Shown piece by piece: positions 1,501-64,000 of a stretch of 64,000 nt of DNA; the first letter of the stretch is position 1, and each line of letters opens with the position of its first letter. The DNA lies in the NCBI GenBank assembly GCA_009192285.1, contig WBVU01000009.1, forward strand, positions 930,001-994,000, read 5' to 3'. Made by a program: the position numbers and the translations under genes. Origin of the DNA: Morchella semilibera. Lineage: Eukaryota; Ascomycota; Pezizomycetes; Pezizales; Morchellaceae. The notes beneath the pieces were generated by a model. It was not told the DNA's origin. It ran no database searches and saw only the letters and a list, made by a program, of their open reading frames with translations.

Positions 1501-3993
1501 GGTGATAATGAACGTGTGCGAAGTAAAAGTAAGGCGTCGTATCAAACGTCACCGGAAAAGCAAAACCCAGAGAGTGTAAAAAAAAAAAAAGAGAGAGAGA
1601 TTGTGTGTGTGCGTGCGTGTGCTGTGCGTGTGTGTGCGTTTATAGGGCAATAAAATGAACGACTTGACAAAAAATAAACAAAAATAAAATAAAACAAGAA
1701 AAAGGAACGGAAAAACAAAACCCCGCTCGCTGGTGGACCACACGTAAGGGGGAGTTGATTCGTACTCAACGTTTGGATAAGGGAGAGAGAGAGAGAGAGA
1801 AATCATGGTGGACCGGCGGGTTCAATTCTCTATATACAGTCCTCAACCACCGTGCCACACAAGACCCGGAGAAAAGAAATCGTGAAGTACTAAACCCACA
1901 TGTAGGTTGGTGGTTGTCTTTGCCGAGTGGATGGGAAGAATCACCGGGGGGGGGGGGGGGCGAGAGAGAGTGAGAGTGAGAGAGTCAAAAATAACTGAGA
2001 GGGACCGGACCCTGGAGCACCGGGCGCTGGCTCACGCGGGAGATTTAGCTCAGGTACCCGTATTTCAACTTGACTTGCAGTTATTTTCCGTAATAGAGAT
2101 TTTTCTTTTTTTCTTTTTTTTCTTTTCTTTCTTTTTCTTTTTTTCTCTCCTCTTTTTCTTTCCTTTCTTTTCTTTTTTTTCCCTTTTGTCTGGGGAGGGA
2201 GGGGGGAATGCGGAGGTGGAGGTGGAGGTGGAGATGTCTGGTTGTAGATTCACGCCGTTGCATTACCGGGCCTACTCTACTTTACTGCATACTACTACTA
2301 TAAAGTCTACTAAATTTACTATTATTATTACTACTGCATGAGCAAGAAGTAGACTACAACTGTCAACCCTCACCATCACCACCAAACCAAACCAAACCAT
2401 CGCAATATCACAACGACCCACCAAACAACCAACCAAGACGCAATACGAAAGACGCCATATAAGTCACCGTATGTATCACCCCTTTCCTCAACACCGCCCC
2501 CCCCTCTCTCCCTCTCCCTCTCTTTCTTTCTCTCTCTCTCTAACTCTCGATCTCCCAGATACATACAAAGAATCCCTAAAAAAGACAGAACTCGGTCAAA
2601 TAAAACCAGCTGACTGACCCCCCCTAGGGCCTAACAATGTCTCAACAACACCGACCTCTTGGCACCACCCCCCCCCGCCTCTCCACAACCACTCAGGTAC
2701 ATACAACCCCGTTAGATACATGCACTCTAGCTGCTACTTGGTTTGGGCACTGACTAACTCGAGACCCTAAATAATCTCCACCTACGTACCTTACTGTCCC
2801 TCCCTGTCCCTACCTACCGTTACGGCAAAAAGAAGAGAAAGAAGAAAAGAAAAGAAAAGAAAAATAAGAATACAAAAAAAGGGGGGGCTTAAAACTCTAA
2901 ACACATGCACTGGACCTTTGATGAGTTCTAGGGTTTGGTTTATATTTCGCGCGCGCGCACTCTCGCGACAGACCGCAGCGCAGCTCCTTTTCTTCCTCTC
3001 CCCTTTACTCCATCCAGTACTCTGATCTGGAGATCAAAGCTTGTGGCCCCATCCCCATTTCTATATCCATGTGCAATTAATCTGCACCGGGGGGTTACGG
3101 TGGTTCTAGAATACACTTGGTAATCATGTAGGCACCAATGGAACCGGAGTGATCGACAGTGCAATCACAAAAGCAGCAGCAATCATGTTGTTTTCCTAGT
3201 ACTTTTTTTTGATTCCGAACTACCCGGCCGGTGGTTCCTTCCTCCTTCTCCTTCTAGACCCAGGGTACCGTACCGTACCGTACATACCTACCCGAGGGGG
3301 CCGAGTGCGCGCGATCGATTGGCCGGCTGATTGATAACCATAAATCCCCCCCCTCTAAAGGGAAATAAATCTCCCGACCAGCAGCAGTAGTAGGTAGTAG
3401 TGGGGGAGAAGAAACCCTGAGGTGGTGGGTATCCATGCGTAAATGATTCTATTTCGGGGCTGACGTCGGGATTTCGAGAGAGAGCTCGGACTCGGGCCAA
3501 TTCTGAACTGGGCTGGACCGGGTGAGATGCAGGTACCCGCCCGGTCCACGTTCACTGGCTTTATGAGATATTAAACATTAAACGGCTTGGGGGAGCCACG
3601 ATGTGTGCCTGAAATCTAATCAATACCAAATCTAAGGCACCCACTGAGATTCTGGATCTTGTGGGGGGAGTTTGGGTTATTATAGCCTAGCCTAGCATGT
3701 ATGTAGAGTTGTGTATGTGCATTGATTGGTATTGCGCTGCAGCTCTCTTGGACGGCGGCCTCGAGCGTTATATGAGAATTGGAATGATTTAAACTGCTTA
3801 TGGGATCTGATCGTATACACAATGGTACTACTGATATTGGTGTAATTATGGAATTATGGCTGCAACTATGGAGGGCTTTTTCTCATATCAATTACTTATA
3901 TATAGAGAGAGAGGGTATTTATTTTTGATTTTTTGATATCTATTCTATCATTATATATCCCCCTCCTCTATCCCATCCCCATATCGAGTCTCT
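1501..3993. other. Intergenic, simple-sequence rich, no gene seen
   Basis: This stretch holds a (GA)n tract at 1782-1800, a run of 15 G at 1946-1960, a long T/C-rich tract at about 2100-2190, ATT/ACT triplet runs near 2280-2335, CT-rich DNA at 2500-2545 and an A/G tract near 2830-2890. I see no conserved ORF, tRNA or transposon end in it. It is the upstream region of the leftmost gene and the downstream region of the SET gene. Confidence 0.6.
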
Positions 3994-5944
3994 TCACTCG
4001 ATACAGACAATCACGACCTCTGCCTCTTCGCCCTCGAGTCTCACACCGATACTCTCGCTCCCAAACACCCTCATCCCCCACCTCAACAACCCCTCCGTCC
4101 ACCCCTCCCCCGCAAACACCTCCGGGCGCCGCATTAGCTGCGGCCGGAAAGAGCGCCTTATACAGCTCTCCCACCTCGACCAGCTCCTCCTCCTCCTCCT
4201 CCTCCTCCTCCTCCTCGTCACCATCGGGCCTCCCACACTTGCCCGTCTCCAGCAAGCGGCCAAACCACCTCCCCCACGTCTCCGGGAAGCTATCGCGGTG
4301 GAGATAGCGCCAGCAGAGGAACAACGTAAAGACCAAGTCCTCCTGCCCAGCCATCTGCAGCTCCAGCGGCACAATACTCCCGAAACACGCCTCCACAGCC
4401 GCAGAATACACGGGGTCCTCGGAGCGCGGACACGAGCGAGACGGCGAGCTGCTTGCTGTCGCGCAGGACCCCGCGGATGACGCCCTCGGACTCGGCGGCC
4501 GCCGCGGCCATGATGGCGAGCTGGGCGTCGCGGTAGGTCTTTGCGGCGCGGCGCCGGGGCGTCGTGGCGGGCGGGAGGGCGGGCTCGGGGGGGATGTTGT
4601 TGAGTTTGTGGCGGACGGCGAGCAGCAGCTGGCGGTGCGTTGCGATGGTGTTTCGGAGCGTGGTGGTTTGTGCGGTGGGGTTGGCGGCGAGGAGCGGGAG
4701 CTCCTCGGGTGTGGCGGTCAGGAGGTGGAATAGGCTGAGGAGGGAGGGCGGGTAGAGGGAGTCTGGGTTCCGGGGGGTCAGGTGGTGGATGCCGGATGGG
4801 AAGGGCGAGGGGGGTTGGAGCGCGCGGATCGATTCCTGTGCGGGGGAGAGGGTGGGGAGGAAGCGGAGGACGACGGTGTCGAAGGGGTTGGAGGGAAGGG
4901 TGAAGCCATATCCCATCAAGACTGTATAGAGAATACTGTTTAGTATAATTACTATATGGGGGAAGGTTGTGTAGGTACAGACGTTCTTCATTGCTCTTTG
5001 GTCCGTAGTTGTTGCAAACCTCTCCGCCGGCGGGGATCTCGTCGCCGCTGAGAACATTGAGGGCGCCATCACCGGGGGCCCAGGTGATCTTTGTGAGGGG
5101 CTGATGGTTCACGGAATCAATGAGCGGGAAGAGCGCCGGTAGACAATCCGGATCATCAATCTCCGTCATTGAGAATTCTGTTTTCCAATTGAGCAGCTTT
5201 CCCGGGAACGATCTCGACGAGAAGACCGTCGCCGCCCAAAGAAACAGCTCCCTAATATCATTGACACCAAAAATCATCAGCTCAGCGGCCACCATCTTGA
5301 CCTCCTCACCACCTCACAACTAACTAACCAAGTATATTCCCTCGCAGCCCGCGACCCCACACTCTTCTCCCTCCTGAGCGCCTCCGCCGCGCAAGCCCAC
5401 TCCTCCATCCACGCCTTCTTCCGCGACCTGACCTCCTCGGCGTTCAGATTGCACCCAGCCAGCCACTTGATGTCCTCAGCGGTCGAAATAGAGCGGCGTG
5501 TCGAACGTGCGCGGTAGGATGCGCAGGTACGGGGACCAGAAGCTCGACTCGCCCTTGAGCCGCTCGCCGACGACGAAGGTGCAGAGCGCGGCGTGCGGGG
5601 TCACGGCCGCAATGAACGACTCCGAGTAGTGCGCCTGGACCTTGGCGTAGTCGATCGCGAGGGCGTGCGGACATGTCAGCAGCGTTGAGGACGGCGGGAT
5701 GCCGGCGGTGGTGAGGACTTTGCTGCCTTCTTCGGATTCTAGGTGGGGAGGGTAGAGTTAGCTGCTGATGGCATGCGGATTTGGAAAATATATAAACATA
5801 TATATATATATAATTATATATTTATAGTAAGTATACCGGGAGGGGTGAAGATGAGGGACTCTTGGATGAACCCCCGTTGGCGATGATCCATTCGCCAAAC
5901 TTCTGGAAAGCCGCATCGGTGGAGAACTCGCGGGCTGCAGACAT
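3994..5944 (-). CDS. SET-domain protein lysine methyltransferase-like (SETD6/SETD3/Rubisco-LSMT class), frame-broken
   Basis: Exons read 5944-5837, 5738-5329, 5251-4983 and 4921-3994, with GT..AG introns of 98, 77 and 61 nt. The N-terminus (EFSTDAAFQKFGEWIIANGG) and the core are typical of the SETD6/LSMT-like class: ELFLWAATVFSSRSFPG, then FPLIDSVNHQP (the conserved DxxNH region), then GGEVCNNYGPKSNEELLMGYGF (the NYG element near the S-adenosylmethionine and substrate site). A C-terminal helical region follows. Members of this class methylate lysines of ribosomal or other proteins. Four one-base breaks disturb the frame: one base missing at the C5 run 5871-5875, and one extra base each near 5481, 4420 and 4126. 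With them discounted the length is 570 aa, ordinary for the family. An acidic glutamate run (about residues 487-498) lies near the end. Family call is confident; the substrate cannot be told. Confidence 0.8.
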
Positions 5945-6180
5945 TTTGAGGGGGATCGTGCGCGTGTTTGAATTGTTTGAATTGTTTTTTGAATTGAGGT
6001 GAGTTCGCGGGTTTTCATAAAGGAAAGAGAGCGGGGGAGTTGATGTTGAGTTTCTGTTATCGCGATAAGGAAATTGGTTGTTACAACTTCTCTCTTTTCT
6101 TTCTTCTTCCCTCAAACTTCATCTCTCCTTCACTCTTTCTCACCTTCTTCTTTTTTCATATCATCTTCAACTACATCTCC
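5945..6180. promoter_or_regulatory. Shared divergent promoter region
   Basis: The 236 bp between the two opposed start codons is the only upstream space for both the SET gene and the DUF1992 gene. The side facing the + gene has a strong T/C-rich tract (about 6090-6175) ending at the ATG, as is common in fungal core promoters. No clear TATA box is visible. Confidence 0.5.
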
Positions 6181-7691
6181 ATGTCCTTGAAACTTGTTGG
6201 AAGACGCTCTATTATACATCTATTCCGTCCTATTCCCAGTGGTACTCAGCTTACACAGCACCGTCTCTACAGCTCAAGCTCTAACGACGCCACCACCACC
6301 ACCCAGCAGAGCTCTCCTCCGGCCTCAAATAATGAAGAACCAGAACCAGAATCTGCTCTTACCCGCCGCTTCACCGCCATGGCCGAAGACGCCCTCACTG
6401 CCTCTCCGCGCCGTGCCTCAGAGATCACCTCCGAAAACACCTTCTCCGAAGACCTAAAGCGTGAGCTCGAGGCCCGCATCGCCGGAGCCGACTTCAAATC
6501 CGCCCACGCCTCTGCCATTGCCTCCTCAAACCTCCCATCCTACGCCTCCAAACACACGCGCGACATCGCCTCCGCCCAGCACTGGACCGGCACCGAATCC
6601 ACCTCCGACAGCGTCCTCCGCATGCTCGTCGACGCCCACAAGCCCCTCAAGAAGGACCTCCGGGACGGCGGGGGACCGGCAAACATCGACCTCCGCCCCA
6701 CCCCGAAATACCAGCCACGCAGCAGCGGCGACCGCATCGCGCGCGCCCGCGAAAAGTCAACCGAATACTCGCTCGCGCGCGACGCCCAGACGGACGCCGA
6801 GCGGGCCGAGATCCGGCACCAGTTCCGCGAGCGGTTCCTCCCCGAGTCGCGGGCCGTGGCGTCCGTGAACGCGCTCAAGTCGCTCGCCGACGAGCGCATC
6901 GAGGAGGCGCGCCAGCGCGGCGCCTTCCGCCACAACAGCATGCGCGGCAGGCCGCTGGAGCGGGACCACACGGCCGAGAGCCCGTTCCTCGGACACGACA
7001 GAGTACCTGCTCAACCGCATCATCAAGGACCAGGACATTGTTCCGCCGTGGATCGAGAAGCAGCAGGACCTGGCGGGCGGCGGCGAGGGCCTTCCGCGAG
7101 CGCTTGAGGGTCGAGTGGCGCCGGCATGTCAGTCGCTGTATCGCGGCGGAGGTGACGGGGCTGGAGGAGCAGTGCCGCCGCGCAGAGAGGTATGCCGAGG
7201 CCGAGGAGCGCCTGCGGAGGATCGAGGAACGTGCGGCCAGGATCGAGGAAGGGAAAGAGGTCCCCGGCGAAGAAGAACCACCCGTCTCCACCACCGGTGG
7301 GTCACTAACGCCGTTTAGGGACCCCGTGTGGGAGCGGACCGAGGCATCGTACCACAACCTGGCCATCGAGAACCTCAACTCCATCACACGCACCTACAAC
7401 CTCATGGCGCCGGAGCTGGCCAAAAAGCCCTACTTCTCCCTCGACCGCGAGCTCAAGACATGCTTCCGCGAGTGCGCGCCGCAGATCTCCGCAGAGATCA
7501 GGGCGAGGGCCACGAGGCCAAACACACCGTCGTCACCATCATCCTTGAAGAAGGGGGATGTCGGGATCCTGGAGAGCCTGGCGGGCGAGGGCGCTGCTGC
7601 CGCGGTCTACGATAGCAAGAAGCCGAATTACGGGTTTAAGGAGTTTTGGCGGGACGTGTTTGGGAGGGGGAGGGGGGAAGAGGCCGCTTGA
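6181..7691 (+). CDS. DUF1992 (DNAJC28-like) mitochondrial protein, frame-broken
   Basis: The DUF1992 domain is recognisable: ADERIEEARQRGAF...RGRPLE, NPFL-type segment SPFL, then EYLLNRIIKDQDIVPPWIEKQ and a long charged helix ending in RAFRERLRVEWRR. These match the conserved block of DnaJ homologue subfamily C member 28, a mitochondrial or Golgi-associated protein of unclear role. The start at 6181 is preferred over an upstream in-frame ATG at 6040, whose extension only translates the T/C-rich leader. From 6181 the N-terminus is basic, lacks acids and reaches RLYSSSS, a good mitochondrial presequence. Two one-base insertions break the frame, near 6991 (CTCGGACACG) and between about 7070 and 7090 (GCGGGCGGCGGCG). 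With both discounted the protein is 502 aa. The second half (about 7290-7691) stays open to the stop. Coding is strongly GC-rich, like the SET gene beside it. Confidence 0.78.
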
Positions 7692-25148: not shown

Positions 25149-28100
25149 ATGGCGCCAGCGCGCCGATCTACGAGGTCGAAGGCGGAAACGGCGGACAATA
25201 AAACGGAGACAGCGCCAAAAGTTCCCGCAACACGTGTTGCGAAGAAAACGAAGGCTGCTGCTGCGAAAGAAGTCGCCATTGTGAAAGAGACAATTCAGGA
25301 AGAGACAGCCGAGGAAGAGGCGGTGGAGAAAGAGACAGCCGAGAAAGAGACAGCCGAGAAAAAGACGGTCGGGAAAGAGGCCGAGGAAAAGAATGTACGG
25401 AGGTCTACACGAGCCAGGAAAGGCGCCAATGCTGAAGCAGAGAAGGAGAAAGTAGTGGAGGCCAAAGATGGAGATAAACAGGAGACTGGGGAGAAAATAA
25501 AGAATGGGATCGAGGAAGCTGACATTACACCTGCTGTCCCTGAATCTCGGCCTGTACCTACTAGCGATGTCGGCCCAACCAAACCACCCGTAAAAGCCAG
25601 AGTGACCAGGGGCCGTGCTACTAAGGGACAGACTACAGTCACCGCACCAGCGGAAGAGGAGGTGGTTGTTGACGAGGCTACTATCACTTCTACTGCACCC
25701 GCCCCCATAGTTAGGCGGTCTACACGGGGAAACCGTGGAACTTCAGAAGCTCCTGCAGACAGTACCATTACTGTAGTACCTCCTGTGGAAAAGCCTAAAC
25801 GCGGAAAGAAGGTCGCCGAAATTTTCGAAACTACCGCCGCCGAAAGTGCTGCCGCTGCCTCTTCAAGCGCAACACCTCACTGGGCTAAAAAGAAAGAGAG
25901 GAAGGCAGAGGTGGAGCCAATTGCTAGTAGCGAGGTGGATGCCCCAGAAAAAGCAGCAGCGAGAGGAAGGAAGAGGAAGGCTGCAGCATCAAAAAAAGGG
26001 AAGGGGAAGGCGAGGAAAGTACAAGAGGAACCCGAGGAGCCTGAAGTCGAGGAGCCCGAAGCCAAGGAGCCCGAAGCCGGGGAATCCGGAGCCGAGGGGG
26101 CCGTGGCTGAGATTTCTGGTACTCCCACCAAAGAGCCAATCCCAGCCGCCGAAGAGGAGTCCACTATCGACAACGATGCAGTAACAGATCACGAAGTTGC
26201 CAGGAAGGAATCTAAGCACCCCCCAATGCAACCAAGCCTTCAAAGAAGGCAAATGCTACTGCAAAGAAGACCGCCACTAAGAAGGCGCCAGTTACTAGAA
26301 AGTCAGCAAGGGGGAAAAAAGCCGAAGAAGTTGCCCAAACAGCCGAAAATGGAGATGGGGCTGCTCCATTTGAGCAAGCAGATCTAATTGCGGAGGATAC
26401 CCCGGTGGCCAATCCACAAGTGATCACGGAATCTTCCCAGAAAGTCAATGACGAGGATATTGCCCCAAATCCAGTACCGGAATCTTCGCAAGTCACCGAA
26501 ATGGATGACTCTCACGGGGAGGATGCAGATCAAGCACCAAAAATCCAGGATTCCGGAGTTTTCATCGAGTCTTTCAGAAGCACTCAGGATAAGCCAGCAG
26601 CAGCCCCCAGAGAACAAGTTGACATCAAGGAACAATTGAAGGGAGATGGCGGGAACGAGGACTCCATGCCCGTGGAGGGGGTTAGGAATGAGGGCGCCAG
26701 CGCTACTATAAATGAGGATCCCTCATCTGGAGAGAAGACCGAAGAAGCCAAGGGTTCCGTTTCTGCAACAAGGAGTGATGGCCCCGGGGATCAAGTGGGA
26801 GATGTCACCGAAAAGATATTTGGGGCTGATTCTCCACCTACCAGCAAAACTAAAGCCCCCAAGCCTAGAAAGAAGTCTGCGGCTACCAAAAAGAAAGAGC
26901 GTGCAGCTACAATCAAAAAAGCAAAAAGTAAACCACAACCTGAAACTGACGCTGATGGTGATGTCAATGTCGATGCTGAGCCGGAGGTAGAAGTTGGCCA
27001 CAAAAACGCCCCTTCAAGCGCGAGGGTTATTGATCCTGCTACTGTCCTTGGCCCGAGAAAGAGTGGTGTTGTTAAAAAAACCACAACGGCCAGGAGGGGG
27101 AGAAGTGCTGCAGCCAAACGGGGGGTCTCCACAATCGGAACTATTCAAGACGATGGAATTATGTCCGACCAGGGCAATGATGCAAAGCCAGAGACTATTG
27201 GCGAGAAACCGAAAGGTGTTCAAGATGATGAACCAATTAACGCTGTGCCCGAAGAAATATCAGTCAGGCAGGGCTCAAGTGAAGCAGTTACTCGCGTGAG
27301 CGGGGATGTTTTGGATGAAACAGTTCACGAAGAAACTTCTGGGAAGATTTCAGAGGAGGCTATCATCGCGCATGATGAGGATGAAGATTTTGCTCTACCA
27401 ATGTCTAAGCCCATTATCCTTTCCCCGACCAGATTCACCTCACCAGATCCCAATCTAGACCCTATCAAGAGTTCAGTACCATCATCGCCGGTAACTTTCA
27501 ATCTATCGCATCCGCAGCTACACTCCTCTCCACTTCGTAATGCTAGTCAAGAGCCCGTTCTTGCCTCTCCAGGATCGGTTACCACACCTAGGGGCCCTTC
27601 GCCGATCAAAAAATGGGCAACTCCTAATAAACATACGCCCAGTCGCCTCTCTAAGAGTGGAACCCCACTCAAAAACCTTGAAGGTAAAAGCATAAATCTT
27701 TGACTTTTAGAAGTATACTAATCTCGTTACTATCTCGCCTTAGACTCGAGAGATATTAGGAAAGTCGCCAGTACCCCCACACGGGCGCTGAATGTCGATG
27801 TCCAAAGCAGCCCAGTTATGATGCCACCCCCGACCCCAGATCTTGTTGCTGGCGATGGAAGAAGCCCAGTCAAACAAACGCCAACCAAGGAGCCACTGGT
27901 AGGCGATGTTGTCCTGAGTAATTCAAAGATCACCTTAGAAATGGAAAATAAAGGGCATATTAGTTCAAGTCCCGTCAAAAACCCGACACCTATAAAAGGT
28001 CAAACTCAAACCCACTCTCACTAGTTACCAACTGCTAATAGTTTCACAGCCGATTCTTTTATTTTATCTAGCCCGGCTGGTCGTTTAAGCTTTTCCGAAG

Positions 28101-57889: not shown

Positions 57890-59373
57890 AGCGCGAGCAC
57901 AAAAAAGAGATGCTTGACTGCTATTTTAGCCTTCATTTCATCATTTACGCGGCATGTTTTTTCAATAGGGCATCGATATTTACGCCTCGGTTCTGGGCCG
58001 GAGTTTTATCTGTTTTTTTTTTTTTACCCTTTTCCTTAATACCAGTGTAGTAGAGCTCTGTATTACATCATCATCATGAGCCATTCGCTCCCTATCAATT
58101 TCCTTTTTTATCTCTGACGTTGATTCTGATTCTGTACATTATGCTACACACGAATACTTTTGAACACGTAAAAACCGGGGGGGAAGAGTCAGAAAATTAA
58201 TTGATGAGAAATTTTCCAATCCCGCTTTTCTCTGCGGCTAGCAGGCTGCGTGTTTAATTTGGTGGGTGCATGGGGTAGCGATGTAGATCCATGTACCCCG
58301 CAAGTGCTGCAACTGGCACAGGTGTAGACGAGAGGGAAGGGAAATGATTGTCATAACACGCCCCTCTTCACTGAACCAGTCCATGTGCTTGTGGTACTTC
58401 CCGTAAACGCACTCACCGGAATAGCTACAACAAGGATTTTCCCCAATGCCATTGGTGGCGGTCAGCTGTTAGCCGTAGATATACGGATTGAACCTCAATA
58501 ATCATTATCCACTTACTGCACCCTGTAAGTATTTTCTTGGTACATAGGTACGTAGAGGAGGGGTACTGAATTCTCCCGAGGGATAAGTACCTACTACATA
58601 CCTATAACCTATATGTACCTACCCACAAAAACCAACCTTTCCGATGGCTATGCTACCAGACGCCAGCCTATCGGGAAGCTGGATATAGCAGGTACTTAGT
58701 TACTTACTTACACCTACCTATATTAATTACCACTACTGCATAAGCGTTGACCTGAGGGTAAGTACAAAGATGACATGAATATACATGTACCCTCTACCCC
58801 ACCGAACGAACGCCAGCTCACTGGTAAGCAGCTGCATGGTTATATATTACGCTCGGTGCGGGGTGCCCTGGTTCCCTGGAAGGCGGTTAATATCTCTGGC
58901 CGAGTGATGCCGTGTGATGTTTGGCCTAAGTACCTACATGTAGGTAGACGGATAGCGGTGTGTGTTTGTGTGTGTGTGGGTACTGCTAAGGGATGGACGA
59001 TGCCCCCGGATCTTGGTCTGGGAAACGTGCGGGCCCTGCGTGCGTGCATGCGTGCGGGGTGTGTGAATGGGTGTGGGTGGGGTACGTTGGAGGGTGGGGC
59101 ACTCTACAGTCTATTAGCTCCAGATTTACATGTAATTCAATTAAGCCTTGAGAGGGAGGGACGGGTATATGGAATGATTGATATGCGTATCCTACATGTG
59201 TTTATCTACATGCGGATCTTGATTGGGAAGTGCAATTCCTTTCTGTCGAAAAGTGCAGTGATTTTATGGCTCTCCGGGGTCTATAATGCGCTCCAGTTAA
59301 TGTGTGTTTCTACTGCAATAGAGAGAGCAATTGCATAGAACATAGGTAATAATAAATAATACTAGATAGTGTG
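57890..59373. other. Intergenic between exo-glucanase and retroelement
   Basis: It is rich in TACCTAC/GTAGGTA and TACATGTA words (near 58782, 58935, 59127) and a GTGTGT stretch at about 58960. The 187-codon ORF at 58775-59338 has no domain and consists partly of these words, so I do not call it. Confidence 0.5.
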
Positions 59374-59492
59374 TGTCACGAAACCGTGTCACAACACGTG
59401 GAGGTATAGTTGGTCACAACGCACTATATAGTTACTCGTAACTTGTACCTTAACTCTACAGACTCTTGGGGAATAAAAGTTTTGCTATAACA
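59374..59492 (+). mobile_element. Putative 5' LTR, about 119 bp
   Basis: The segment starts TGTCACGAAACC and ends TATAACA, so it has the TG...CA ends of an LTR. It contains a TATA-like TATATAG at 59425 and GAATAAAAG near its 3' end. It stands directly before a primer-binding site and the Gag ORF. The second LTR lies outside the window, so the limits are inferred. Confidence 0.55.
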
Positions 59493-59609: not shown

Positions 59610-62600
59610 ATGCAGAAAGAAGATAACGAAAGCAACACTGGGATAAGTGGAGCAAACACTACGTCATTACAACGAAGCGATTTGGGAAACCCGAGCGGAG
59701 ATACAGAAAGGATAGACACGTTGACGAAACTTTCACAGCGGAAAGTACAACTAAATACAGATAATTGTGCAACCGGAGAAAAACAAGAAGCAGAAGGATC
59801 GTACCGATTGTCAACTCCAACAAAAGCGAAAAAAAATCTCGGCACAAACACCTGGGACGCAGCATCCCCACGAACACTGCAAACGGAAATCAAAGGACGC
59901 GTAGCAGGAACGCAACCACATAACCCGTACGCAAGAAAACCCAATCAACACCCGCTAAAATTTCTCAGGAAACAGCCAACAAACGGAAGTAAAATACCAT
60001 TCCACGAGGAATCAGAAACATCCGAATTATCTTCCCCCTCAGACGACGAAATGGCACACAATGGTTGGCCAAAAGTTAACCCCTTCAGTGGAGAAGGAGA
60101 AGAGCAGGTAAACAATTTCATCGATGACTTCGAAGCCGCAATGAGATGGGCCAGGACCCCGAAGTATGATGATACTGAGGCAGGAAGGCTTCAGTATGAA
60201 AGAGATAAGGTAATTATCATGCGTCATTCTATGACGGGAAGAGCCCTCAAGGAGACCGGACTGTTCAAACAGTCGGTGAAAGACAACTATGATGAATTTA
60301 TTGCTGCATTGAGGAGAACCTTTCCCAACACCTCACACACGGTATCAATTCAGGAACGCAGGCAGGCACGTGCGTTGCAAACCTATCACCTATTCTCACA
60401 AACAGTTGACGGTAAGGTCCTGGAGCCGGAGGAATACATCAGCAGAGCACAATGGTACCAACACCAATTGCCTGAGAGTCTCCATAATGAGTTAGGTCGG
60501 CTATTTTTGGACGGGCTAGCCCACCGAGGCGATGCATTTATGATAAGAGGGATGATCCCGGAAGTCGAAAAGCGGACCCTTGAAAAGGTGATGGAGGCCT
60601 ACAAGTCATGCGTATCGGGGGAAATGGGGAAGGGTGCACTAGAGGTAGGAGACGAAAAGTATATCTATGGATCAAAGGTGAACCACCCATCACATGACAC
60701 AGGTGACACCAATGGACATCCCAGAAGGAGTCAAGCATCACAGGCCCCATCCAGTGAGGACCTCATAAGGGCACAGATTAATATCATTACCGCGAATAAT
60801 GAAAGTGTGCTGAGGCAGGAAGCGAACACACGCAAGATGGCCCAGGTGGTAGAGGATCAGAATAGGAACTTCCAACGCATACTTACTCTGTTCGAAAGAA
60901 ATTCCACTCAGAGACAGGTACCACGTATTGAGCAAGTTAGCTCAGAGCCCAGGATAAAAGCGGTGGAAGAGACCTCTTCAGGTGAGACATCCAGTGGTGT
61001 TAGAACCCCAACAGCGCCGAGGGCCCCACCCCAGAGGACAGGTGGATATGACAGGAGGGAATTTACCCCCATGTGGGGAGCACCGCGTTCGAATCAAGCA
61101 GGTGGGTATGGCGGAGCAAAGGATCCTTTCATATGCTGGAACTGTGGACAAGAAGGTCACTCCAACTATGACTGCGGCAATGTAGCACTTCCCCCAGCCG
61201 AGAGAAGACGTCTACGTGAAGAACATAACATTCGAAGAGAGGCACGGATCAATGAGATAACAGCCAGAGGATGGGGCATGAATCCAGGCATATCTGCAAG
61301 CGCAAGTACCCCAGCCCCCGCAGCACCCAATCCACAAGCCGTGGCAGTGAATCGAATTGAAGCTACAACACAACCGCAGATAGGTTCCGATGACGAGCTA
61401 GAGACGGTGCTGGCTGATGAGGACGCGGAGGATCAGAAACAGACGTTTGCCAGCCGCTCCATTGACATCTATGACTGGACGGAGTCAGACGCCAGTGATG
61501 ATGATCGGGTACCGCAGACTGTCCTCACCTGCAGAATGGCGAGGGCAGAGATAGTCAGCGATGAGGACATGAAGGACGAGCAGGATGTGTTGCCGAAGAC
61601 CCGAACATACTTTCCAGAGATTCACTCACCACCGAGAGAAGCAGTTACAAGGGGGCAGGAGTTCAACTCCAAAAAGAGACGCGTTCTCGAGGAACTGGGG
61701 ATAGATGAGGGAACTGAAGGAGACACCGAGGACGATCCGGTTGAGGGGTCGCGTAGAGGGAAGGGGAGTAGGAATGCCGCGGACGATCAGGCGAAGGGAT
61801 CGCGTAGTGAAAGACCAAAGGCCGATATGCGTGAAGCAAAGGTGAGGTCAAAGGGGAAGCAGCTAGAATCAATTCAGGGAATGGTTGGTGAGACTCCCTT
61901 CGACTTCCACCAATGGCTGAAGGAAACTCGAATTTCCATGTCAGTCCTTCAATACCTTCAGGCAAGTCCACAGGGGCGCAGACTTCTGGGTTGGGAGATG
62001 GCGTTGGCCTATCCGCAGCGTCGCAGACGTCAGCACTCGACTAGGTTGATTGAAAGGGTCGAGGGAAATGAGAAGGGTCAGAGAATGGATAGATGGGTGG
62101 ATGAAGGAGGGAGACGGGAATGGTTTGATATAAGAAGCTGCACCATCAAGGACTTACAGACCAACAACTTCGGGTCATTTTTCATCACACTGACAGTGAC
62201 GGTTGGCAACCGAAAGTTAGTATTTAAGAAGACAGTGTTGGACCCGGGCTCTGACCTAAATTTGATTACACCGAGATCGGCAGGTATATGCGAAGCCACA
62301 CTGATCAACACAAAGGGGACAAGCATGTCCGGTATGGCTATGCGCACTGCAGATGGGAAGCGTCATCGGCTCAGGCAGGTGGCCGCCATCCCATTTCAGG
62401 TGAGTAGAGCTACATACAACCAGGAGTTCTTTGTCGTGCCAAACGAAAATGCCGAAGAGTGCGGCTTCTCCATTCTACTGGGCTTACCCTGGCTATATGA
62501 CGCACATGCTAAGTTCGATGTGCGCAACTTCATGTATACCATCCAATCTGAGGACGGTAGGATCCTAGAGCTGAGGGTCGTAAGTACGAACCCCGCAAAT

Positions 62601-62627
62601 ATCTCACGCTTGAGTACCCGCTGGTAG
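59610..62627 (+). CDS. Retrotransposon Gag-protease polyprotein (ORF1)
   Basis: This 1,005-aa ORF forms the particle protein and protease of the element. A disordered N-terminus (about 1-150) is followed by a gag-like helical domain (WPKVNPFSGEGEEQVNNFIDDF to about residue 340), a low-complexity linker, and a CCHC zinc knuckle C509-WNC-GQEGH-SNYDC522 (CX2CX4HX4C). An acidic linker comes next. A retropepsin-like domain begins near residue 860, with the active-site region VLDPGSDLNLI (Asp878) and the late motif ILLGLPWLYDAHAKFDVRNF. The residue after Asp878 is Pro where Ser/Thr is usual. The ORF ends at TAG 62625-62627, while the next frame is open and reads sensibly from 62561. The start at 59610 is the first ATG, 117 bp after the LTR. 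Confidence 0.85.
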   Translation: MQKEDNESNTGISGANTTSLQRSDLGNPSGDTERIDTLTKLSQRKVQLNTDNCATGEKQEAEGSYRLSTPTKAKKNLGTNTWDAASPRTLQTEIKGRVAGTQPHNPYARKPNQHPLKFLRKQPTNGSKIPFHEESETSELSSPSDDEMAHNGWPKVNPFSGEGEEQVNNFIDDFEAAMRWARTPKYDDTEAGRLQYERDKVIIMRHSMTGRALKETGLFKQSVKDNYDEFIAALRRTFPNTSHTVSIQERRQARALQTYHLFSQTVDGKVLEPEEYISRAQWYQHQLPESLHNELGRLFLDGLAHRGDAFMIRGMIPEVEKRTLEKVMEAYKSCVSGEMGKGALEVGDEKYIYGSKVNHPSHDTGDTNGHPRRSQASQAPSSEDLIRAQINIITANNESVLRQEANTRKMAQVVEDQNRNFQRILTLFERNSTQRQVPRIEQVSSEPRIKAVEETSSGETSSGVRTPTAPRAPPQRTGGYDRREFTPMWGAPRSNQAGGYGGAKDPFICWNCGQEGHSNYDCGNVALPPAERRRLREEHNIRREARINEITARGWGMNPGISASASTPAPAAPNPQAVAVNRIEATTQPQIGSDDELETVLADEDAEDQKQTFASRSIDIYDWTESDASDDDRVPQTVLTCRMARAEIVSDEDMKDEQDVLPKTRTYFPEIHSPPREAVTRGQEFNSKKRRVLEELGIDEGTEGDTEDDPVEGSRRGKGSRNAADDQAKGSRSERPKADMREAKVRSKGKQLESIQGMVGETPFDFHQWLKETRISMSVLQYLQASPQGRRLLGWEMALAYPQRRRRQHSTRLIERVEGNEKGQRMDRWVDEGGRREWFDIRSCTIKDLQTNNFGSFFITLTVTVGNRKLVFKKTVLDPGSDLNLITPRSAGICEATLINTKGTSMSGMAMRTADGKRHRLRQVAAIPFQVSRATYNQEFFVVPNENAEECGFSILLGLPWLYDAHAKFDVRNFMYTIQSEDGRILELRVVSTNPANISRLSTRW

Positions 62628-63013
62628 TGGACAAATATCAGCACGAAGTCACAGGAAAGGTCATGGAAAAATACGTATACGACTACGACCAGACGGGGGC
62701 AGCCCTAAAGCAGATACCTCGCCCTGAGGAGCTTTTCAGCAGATTGCAGGAAACTCTGAAGGCGGCTGAGCAGGAAGAGGACCTCATCGAGCTATCGACT
62801 AGTGACTCGGAGGCTGAGCAGGACAGGGAATATGAGGCAAGGTATGCTGCTCTGTGTCAGATGTTTGCAGAGGATGGCGGGAAGAAGGAGATAGTAGGTG
62901 AGTATCCCTATGTTGATGCAAAAACTTACTTGCAATTATACGGAGGATATGGTGAGCAGTCAATGGAAGCATGGAAGGAGTGTAAGGGAGATGGGAAAGA
63001 CTCAAAAAACTAA
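62561..63013 (+). CDS. Retroelement ORF2, -1 frame relative to ORF1
   Basis: The frame is open from 62561 to the TAA at 63011-63013 and has no ATG near its beginning, so it is probably expressed as an extension of ORF1. It encodes about 150 residues: RKYEPRKYLTLEYPLVVDKY at the start, then an acidic region (AEQEEDLIELSTSDSEAEQD) and YVDAKTYLQLYGGYG. Possible links from ORF1 are a 62-nt intron with donor GTAAGT at 62580 and acceptor ATATCAG at 62641, or a frame slip within 62561-62624. The last sense codons before the stop are AAA AAC within A_AAA_AAC. Confidence 0.6.
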   Translation, partial: DPRAEGRKYEPRKYLTLEYPLVVDKYQHEVTGKVMEKYVYDYDQTGAALKQIPRPEELFSRLQETLKAAEQEEDLIELSTSDSEAEQDREYEARYAALCQMFAEDGGKKEIVGEYPYVDAKTYLQLYGGYGEQSMEAWKECKGDGKDSKN

Positions 63014-64000
63014 ACTGGTTAAAGCTTATTGGAAGGGGTACAGAAGCCCACATGAAGGAAAGGGGATTAGGAATGGATATTGATATGGGAAAAGGCGTTT
63101 TTGATTTTGACTTTGTCTCCCCAAATAGTGGGATTATTGATGTTAACAAAAAAAGTGAGGGGGATGGGAAGGTTTCTTTTGTTATGAGAGGGCCAAAGGG
63201 GATCCAAGAGGATCGGATAGGTCTTGGCGGAAATGAGTGTTTTATTAGCGGAGAGGGAGGAGATGTGGCAGACGAGGGACTCATGTTGATTAGTCAGGAT
63301 GTGAGCATTAACAAAACTTTACCCGCTTACACTAAGTCCAAACCCCCAACAAGAAAAGAAGAAAAGAAAGAAAAAGAAAAAAGAGAGAAAAAAGAAAAAG
63401 AAGGAGACGAGAAAAATAAAAAACAGGAAAAGGGAGGCAGAGGAAGGGTAGAGATGGAGGAAGTCATAGATGAGTATGACAGGACAAGAAAAATGAGCAA
63501 CACGCAGGGTCGCGCGTTGAGAGAAGGTTGCGGGTGTTGCGCAGAAGGAAATTGCAAGCTGTGGAGGGAATGCAAGGAGGATTGCGTGTGTCTGTGTCCG
63601 GAGCCGCCTGACAATCTGAGAAGGTTTGTCAGGAAAGGAAAGGATCGCTCAGAGCTCGGATTCTGCAAGGATGATGAATGGTGGTATATCGGAACCCAAG
63701 GGACAACAGCAGACGAATTCATTTCAAAAGAGAAAAGGGTACGATGGAAGGAACCACTCGAAGAAATAAGATGGTTTACAAATGAAGAGGAAGTCGCCCT
63801 ATTCAGAATCGATGATCTATTCCTGAAATTAAACACAGGAGCTGAAATGTCACCAAGATGCATACCACAGAGAATCGCATATCAGGAGGAAAGAGAGAGA
63901 ACAGCGGAAGTAAGAATAGCCATCGCACAGGACATGAAATTTTCCAAAGGACCAAAAATCAAACCTCACATTCAGATGCCAGGGGAAACACTACTTCCTA
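62986..64000 (+). CDS. Retroelement ORF3, -1 frame relative to ORF2, open to the window edge
   Basis: The frame is open from 62986 without any stop to position 64000 (338 codons; first ATG at 63052). The likely entry is by -1 slippage at 63004-63010. Contents in order: FDFDFVSPNSGIID and other acidic or glycine-rich sequence; a K/E run (about 63346-63430); a cysteine cluster GCGCCAEGNCKLWRECKEDC and VCLC (63526-63597); a WWYIGTQGTTADEF block; and LFLKLNTGAEMSPRCIP (63820-63873), which resembles a retropepsin active site with Asn in place of the catalytic Asp. Reverse transcriptase motifs are not reached. The role of this spacer between protease and polymerase is unknown. Confidence 0.65.
63004..63010 (+). 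promoter_or_regulatory. -1 frameshift slippery heptamer A_AAA_AAC
   Basis: In the ORF2 frame the codons read TCA AAA AAC TAA, so the heptamer A AAA AAC has exactly the X_XXY_YYZ phasing of known -1 frameshift sites. Slipping back one base makes the next codon CTA at 63010, which is ORF3. The stop codon follows directly. A strong downstream pseudoknot is not obvious by eye. Confidence 0.6.

Follow-up and report, generated by a model that had tools for sequence, protein, structure and literature searches.

Programmed -1 ribosomal frameshifting at an A_AAA_AAC heptamer is the most likely means (probability approximately 0.8) by which pol is reached from the gag-pro frame in a retrotransposon at the 3' end of the window, i.e., the whole 64,000-nucleotide stretch of Morchella semilibera DNA analyzed here (contig WBVU01000009.1, positions 930,001 to 994,000, forward strand). 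The site is probably the gag-pro/pol recoding junction of its lineage, because relatives of the element change to the -1 frame at the corresponding place. The finding is an ordinary one, -1 frameshifting being well known, and the site is probably real; what makes it of interest is that slip signals appear to have been exchanged at a single junction. An earlier note, made from the window sequence alone, had proposed that slippage makes ORF3 and the polymerase, and slippage remains the best explanation, with the relatives at -1 at the corresponding junction and using other canonical heptamers. The description of ORF2 and ORF3 as two retroelement ORFs joined at this point was revised: ORF2 appears to be the tail of gag-pro, and ORF3 is already the start of the pol frame.

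In the proposed mechanism, most ribosomes would stop at the TAA after AAC and produce gag-pro. A few would slip back by one base on A_AAA_AAC, with the AAA and AAC tRNAs re-pairing one base upstream, and would enter the 863-codon pol frame to give a gag-pro-pol fusion. We infer both the slippage on the RNA of the window element and its rate; the stop directly after the heptamer, and not a pseudoknot, would be the only nearby help.

Architecture of the retrotransposon

The M. semilibera genome (56.76 Mb, 23 contigs) was searched for copies and relatives of the element. Coordinates beyond the window are given in region L002, whose position 1 corresponds to window position 59000. The features were as follows.

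59370..59492, + strand: 5' LTR, 123 nt, TG...CA (repeat search of L002, ends read by eye)
59610..62627 (L002 611-3628), + strand: ORF1, 1005 codons; gag, CCHC zinc knuckle, and aspartic-protease-like region
62561..62627, + strand: ORF1/ORF2 overlap, -1, without a canonical heptamer
62561..63013 (L002 3562-4014), + strand: ORF2, 150 codons, putative C-terminal part of the gag-pro frame; last codons TCA AAA AAC TAA
62986..63010, + strand: overlap of the gag-pro (0) and pol (-1) frames, 25 nt
63004..63010, + strand: candidate slippery heptamer A_AAA_AAC in the ORF2 frame, TAA directly after
62986..64000 and on to L002:6578 (outside the window), + strand: ORF3, start of the pol frame; RT and RNase H
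L002 6572-7543: ORF4, integrase zinc domain (Pfam)
L002 7530-8480: ORF5, integrase core (Pfam)
L002:8776-8898, beyond the window: 3' LTR, identical to the 5' LTR

The order of RT, RNase H, and integrase, together with the paired TG...CA LTRs, identifies the element as a Ty3/gypsy LTR retrotransposon, as judged from sequence. The LTRs (123 nt each, 100% identical, 8405 nt from start to start in the repeat search) are flanked by the 4-nt repeat ATAG (read by eye). At its full extent (L002:3987-6578), ORF3 has 863 codons, 338 of which precede the window edge. The Pfam matches over ORF3-ORF5, whose frames are broken in the window copy, came in the order RVT_1 (E 5.2e-5, in ORF3, bits under the curated cut-off), RT_RNaseH_2 (E 1.6e-10), Integrase_H2C2 (E 8.4e-9), and rve (E 3.8e-12). 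The ORF1 matches to zf-CCHC (E 0.018) and Asp_protease_2 (E 0.22) were both weak and under the cut-offs; the protease region of ORF1 was also matched by the protease region of its nearest relative, L034 (tblastn, E 3e-20). A second copy of the element was not detected in its own genome by DNA or by the ORF2 protein (best candidates scored), and none of 149 pattern matches in IMG/VR was confirmed as a relative by tblastn.

The candidate slippery site

The ORF2 end TCA AAA AAC TAA and the open -1 frame across it, both reported in the earlier note, were confirmed at 63002-63013. The sequence AAAAAAC at 63004-63010 is phased as A_AAA_AAC in the ORF2 frame. Upstream of it, the final stop of the -1 frame lies at 62983-62985, and this frame is open from 62986. 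The 0/-1 overlap contains an in-phase X_XXY_YYZ, one of the features of a -1 programmed frameshift signal. When heptamers of the form X_XXY_YYZ with Y = A or T and Z not G were counted, the site itself included, 38 of 2622 six-codon-slot stretches in the open frames of the element contained one in phase (1.45% by chance). The whole element has eight in-phase heptamers of that class in its 2647 codon slots, and an in-phase X_XXY_YYZ was found in none of the overlaps of its three other frame changes (two -1, one +1). A 2016 review counts both A_AAA_AAC and G_GGU_UUU among the heptamers most prone to shifting on mammalian ribosomes (PMC5009743). The codon-usage signal favoured the ORF2 frame up to ~62920 and mostly the ORF3 frame after ~63240; between ~62940 and ~63240, the frames were not separated by codon usage.

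Relatives in the same genome

Searching the genome with ORF3 returned ORF3 itself and 52 other scored places (of 486 candidates), and wide regions were examined for the nine best non-self matches. L034 is 34-36% identical to the window element over RT and RNase H. Its zinc knuckle, protease, and ORF2-like tail share one 703-codon frame (2749-4860), and its pol lies at -1 (4803-6863), giving an overlap at 4803-4860. The single in-phase canonical heptamer of this overlap, in the gag-pro frame, was G_GGT_TTT at 4827 (4.4% by chance). The L034 tail YIDASDYLLLYG aligned with YVDAKTYLQLYG of ORF2 at 12/24 identical positions (E 0.012 for a single comparison), a short and weak match. As the likely counterpart of ORF2 is in frame with the protease in L034, ORF2 is suggested to belong to the gag-pro frame, most plausibly as its C-terminal part rather than as a gene of its own. 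In L034, ~520 nt separate the protease end from the heptamer and only ~200 nt the heptamer from the RT homology. The AAA AAC TAA before the L034 stop was considered as the same motif and dropped, the in-phase canonical heptamer there being G_GGT_TTT.

A sister lineage in the same genome comprised L035-L042, L050, and L057. In three of its copies (L036, L038, L039), gag-pro is followed, after just one -1 change, by a single pol frame 1416-1449 codons long, and these copies can be read through 2475, 2493, and 2499 codons, respectively, with no other shift. L035 has the same -1 arrangement and, within pol (L035:4443-4500), a second -1 change that lacks a heptamer; this copy is young-looking, with LTRs 100% identical over 300 nt. 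Frames were more broken in L037, L040, L041, and L042, and L040 contains 1517 N. T_TTA_AAA was in phase in all four of L035, L036, L038, and L039 (0.2-1.4% by chance each, all of one lineage). A pattern with 5-9 free bases at the heptamer found eight places, all with TTTAAAA; with L037 and L041 added, TTTAAAA was present in 10/10 sister copies compared.

The position of the junction was also similar. From the protease end to the heptamer end, 452 nt were counted in the window element, 438 in L036, 444 in L039, ~435 in L038, and 486 in L035. The heptamer end and the RT homology were 990 nt apart in the window element; the corresponding spacing was 953-1011 nt in L035, L036, and L038 (L039 was left out, its alignment starting earlier). 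L034 fits these distances less well, and its short spacing to RT counts against the proposed reading. The junction and the -1 register appear to be common to the three lineages, and the heptamer is canonical but different in each. Conservation is suggested for the junction only and is not claimed for A_AAA_AAC itself. No significant similarity was found between the N-terminal pol of the window element and that of L036. Cys-rich stretches were seen at window ~63520-63590 (ORF3 residues 179-201, REGCGCC...) and from residue 88 on in the L036 pol (REGSRCA...), and are perhaps a shared small metal-binding module (E 0.35).

Downstream RNA structure

A stimulatory stem-loop or pseudoknot downstream of the heptamer is common among -1 signals but is not known from every case. 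The earlier note had suggested looking for one by RNA folding; 3' of the window heptamer, neither a stem-loop nor a pseudoknot beyond chance was found. Folds of 100, 67, and 50 nt had z scores of 0.06, -0.40, and 0.57, respectively, and the best H-type pseudoknot score (simple scoring scheme) was equalled by 16/60 shuffles. In L034, structure was at most weak: 2/60 shuffles reached the pseudoknot score after G_GGT_TTT, no pseudoknot candidate followed AAAAAC, and the fold z scores were 0.36 and 0.71.

In the sister lineage, a strong stem (43 nt, z -3.84 and -3.17, equalled by 0/200 shuffles) was found within ~5 nt past T_TTA_AAA. The pseudoknot score (simple H-type) was computed for two copies, L036 and L035, and was reached by 0/60 shuffles in each. 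Folds of 100 nt gave less marked values in four sister copies (z -0.29 to -2.36). The succession of T_TTA_AAA, strong stem, and H-type pseudoknot was observed at L036:4067-4129 and in nine sister copies, with a stem 1 of 11-13 bp and a stem 2 of 8 bp (simple score, L035 and L036). This signal block is nearly invariant across copies, too uniform for a covariation test. The sequence just upstream of the block varies between copies, and L057 shows a gap of one base in the C-run of stem 2.

Alternative explanations and other frame changes

The A6 frame change could be a one-base indel (a homopolymer assembly error or decay of the copy) and not a recoding site, which we consider unlikely. The same copy has three frame changes besides the A6 site; all of them lie close to a GGG run, and none has an in-phase heptamer. 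The caution in the earlier note about one-base breaks in host genes was justified, as one of the host genes seems to shift frame. In this DnaJC28-like gene (window 6850-7120), two apparent frame changes within ~100 nt were located near 6985-6998 and 7070-7090, with no intron signals (by eye). Two of its three frames were scanned with Pfam: the match in the first was confined to profile positions 1-34 of 70, and the other had none. The gene appears to be a pseudogene or to contain assembly indels. At window 26190-26400, two long ORFs come together close to a C6 run (~26220), with a Lys/Ala-rich tail running on in the other frame. Assembly indels in the window are plausible, since its host genes are not all clean. 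The SART-1 and phenylalanyl-tRNA synthetase exons in the window gave long unbroken Pfam matches, and one host gene has an apparent intron of 60-odd nt with a fungus-like branch site (by eye).

What argues against an indel at A6 is that in the relatives, too, pol follows gag-pro at -1 across the corresponding junction; if the A6 change were false, the element would be without the junction found in them. In addition, the three sister copies with one shift over 2475, 2493, and 2499 codons indicate that the assembly is not error-rich throughout. The same copies are continuous at the places of two frame changes in the window copy (L002:6572-6578 and 7530-7543), one separating RNase H from integrase and one within the integrase core. 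The other frame changes in the window copy may be assembly errors or real decay, which the identity of the LTRs over 123 nt does not tell apart. Since the window copy as assembled also changes frame both before and after the A6 site, it is either non-productive or mis-assembled.

The frame change between ORF1 and ORF2 is distinct from that at the A6 site and has no heptamer; the codon-usage signal switches frame near 62580, at this overlap. It is read as a lesion or an assembly error, not as a recoding site, because it is absent from L034 and the sister copies. That the overlap (62561-62627) is the true recoding site, and the A6 change the lesion, is highly improbable: the change there is also -1 and comes directly after the protease, but 62561-62627 contains no X_XXY_YYZ heptamer, the L034 protease and tail are in one frame, and the sister shift, ~435-486 nt past the protease, fits the A6 site and not the ORF1/ORF2 overlap.

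It is highly improbable that pol is expressed without slippage, by ribosomes that terminate at 63011 and start again at the ORF3 ATG (63052): this pol-frame ATG is 38 nt past the ORF2 stop codon, but reinitiation is judged unlikely because the relatives are without nearby pol-frame ATGs (the first is inside the RT homology in L034 and ~360-850 nt beyond the heptamer in L035, L036, L038, and L039), and the in-phase heptamer in the overlap would be unneeded.

Comparison with known systems

Like animal LTR retroelements and retroviruses, the window element has an in-phase X_XXY_YYZ, a short 0/-1 overlap, and pol at -1. Unlike in those, no downstream stem or pseudoknot was detected at the window site, and the shift comes after the protease, so that the protease is in the gag frame. 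With Saccharomyces Ty3, the element shares its Ty3/gypsy affiliation and the placing of gag and pol in different frames. The Ty3 frameshift is +1, as opposed to -1 at the window site. The 2016 review cited above calls Ty3 'mechanistically quite distinct' and cites a 2003 survey with pol at -1 in 28/51 animal LTR elements; it describes the proportion of +1 to -1 as less skewed in fungi (PMC5009743).

With the sister lineage, the window element shares the corresponding gag-pro/pol junction, the -1 register, and similar distances. Unlike the sister lineage, with its T_TTA_AAA, strong stem, and H-type pseudoknot, it has A_AAA_AAC and an immediate stop. Tentatively, and with somewhat less than even odds, related Ty3/gypsy lineages of one genome may keep the -1 gag-pro/pol junction and exchange the whole recoding signal, with the window element shifting on the heptamer alone. 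The signals exchanged would be A_AAA_AAC with an immediate stop (window element), G_GGU_UUU (L034), and U_UUA_AAA with a pseudoknot (sister lineage). If true, a single host would contain at least three canonical slip signals, with and without a pseudoknot, that serve one corresponding junction, a natural setting in which to ask how the ratio of gag to gag-pol is determined. The analysis also distinguishes a probable programmed frame change from indels of similar appearance in the same element, a problem in LTR element annotation.

Other retroelements of the genome

Twenty further loci from the ORF3 search (L013-L032) were viewed with only 1.5 kb of flank per side, which gives a partial view. 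An upstream frame with pol at -1 was found at 8/20 loci; at 5/20, a stop codon separated pol from a neighbouring frame of the same register; the remaining seven were without an upstream frame of 80 codons meeting pol. Among the eight -1 loci, three had no in-phase heptamer, which may reflect decay. An in-phase G_GGT_TTT was present in L022 and L026, which have the same 16-nt overlap, and an in-phase G_TTA_AAA in L014, L024, and L027 (read by eye); these five loci represent other retroelement groups, and their overlaps are short. In this partial view, -1 gag/pol arrangements look common in the M. semilibera genome.
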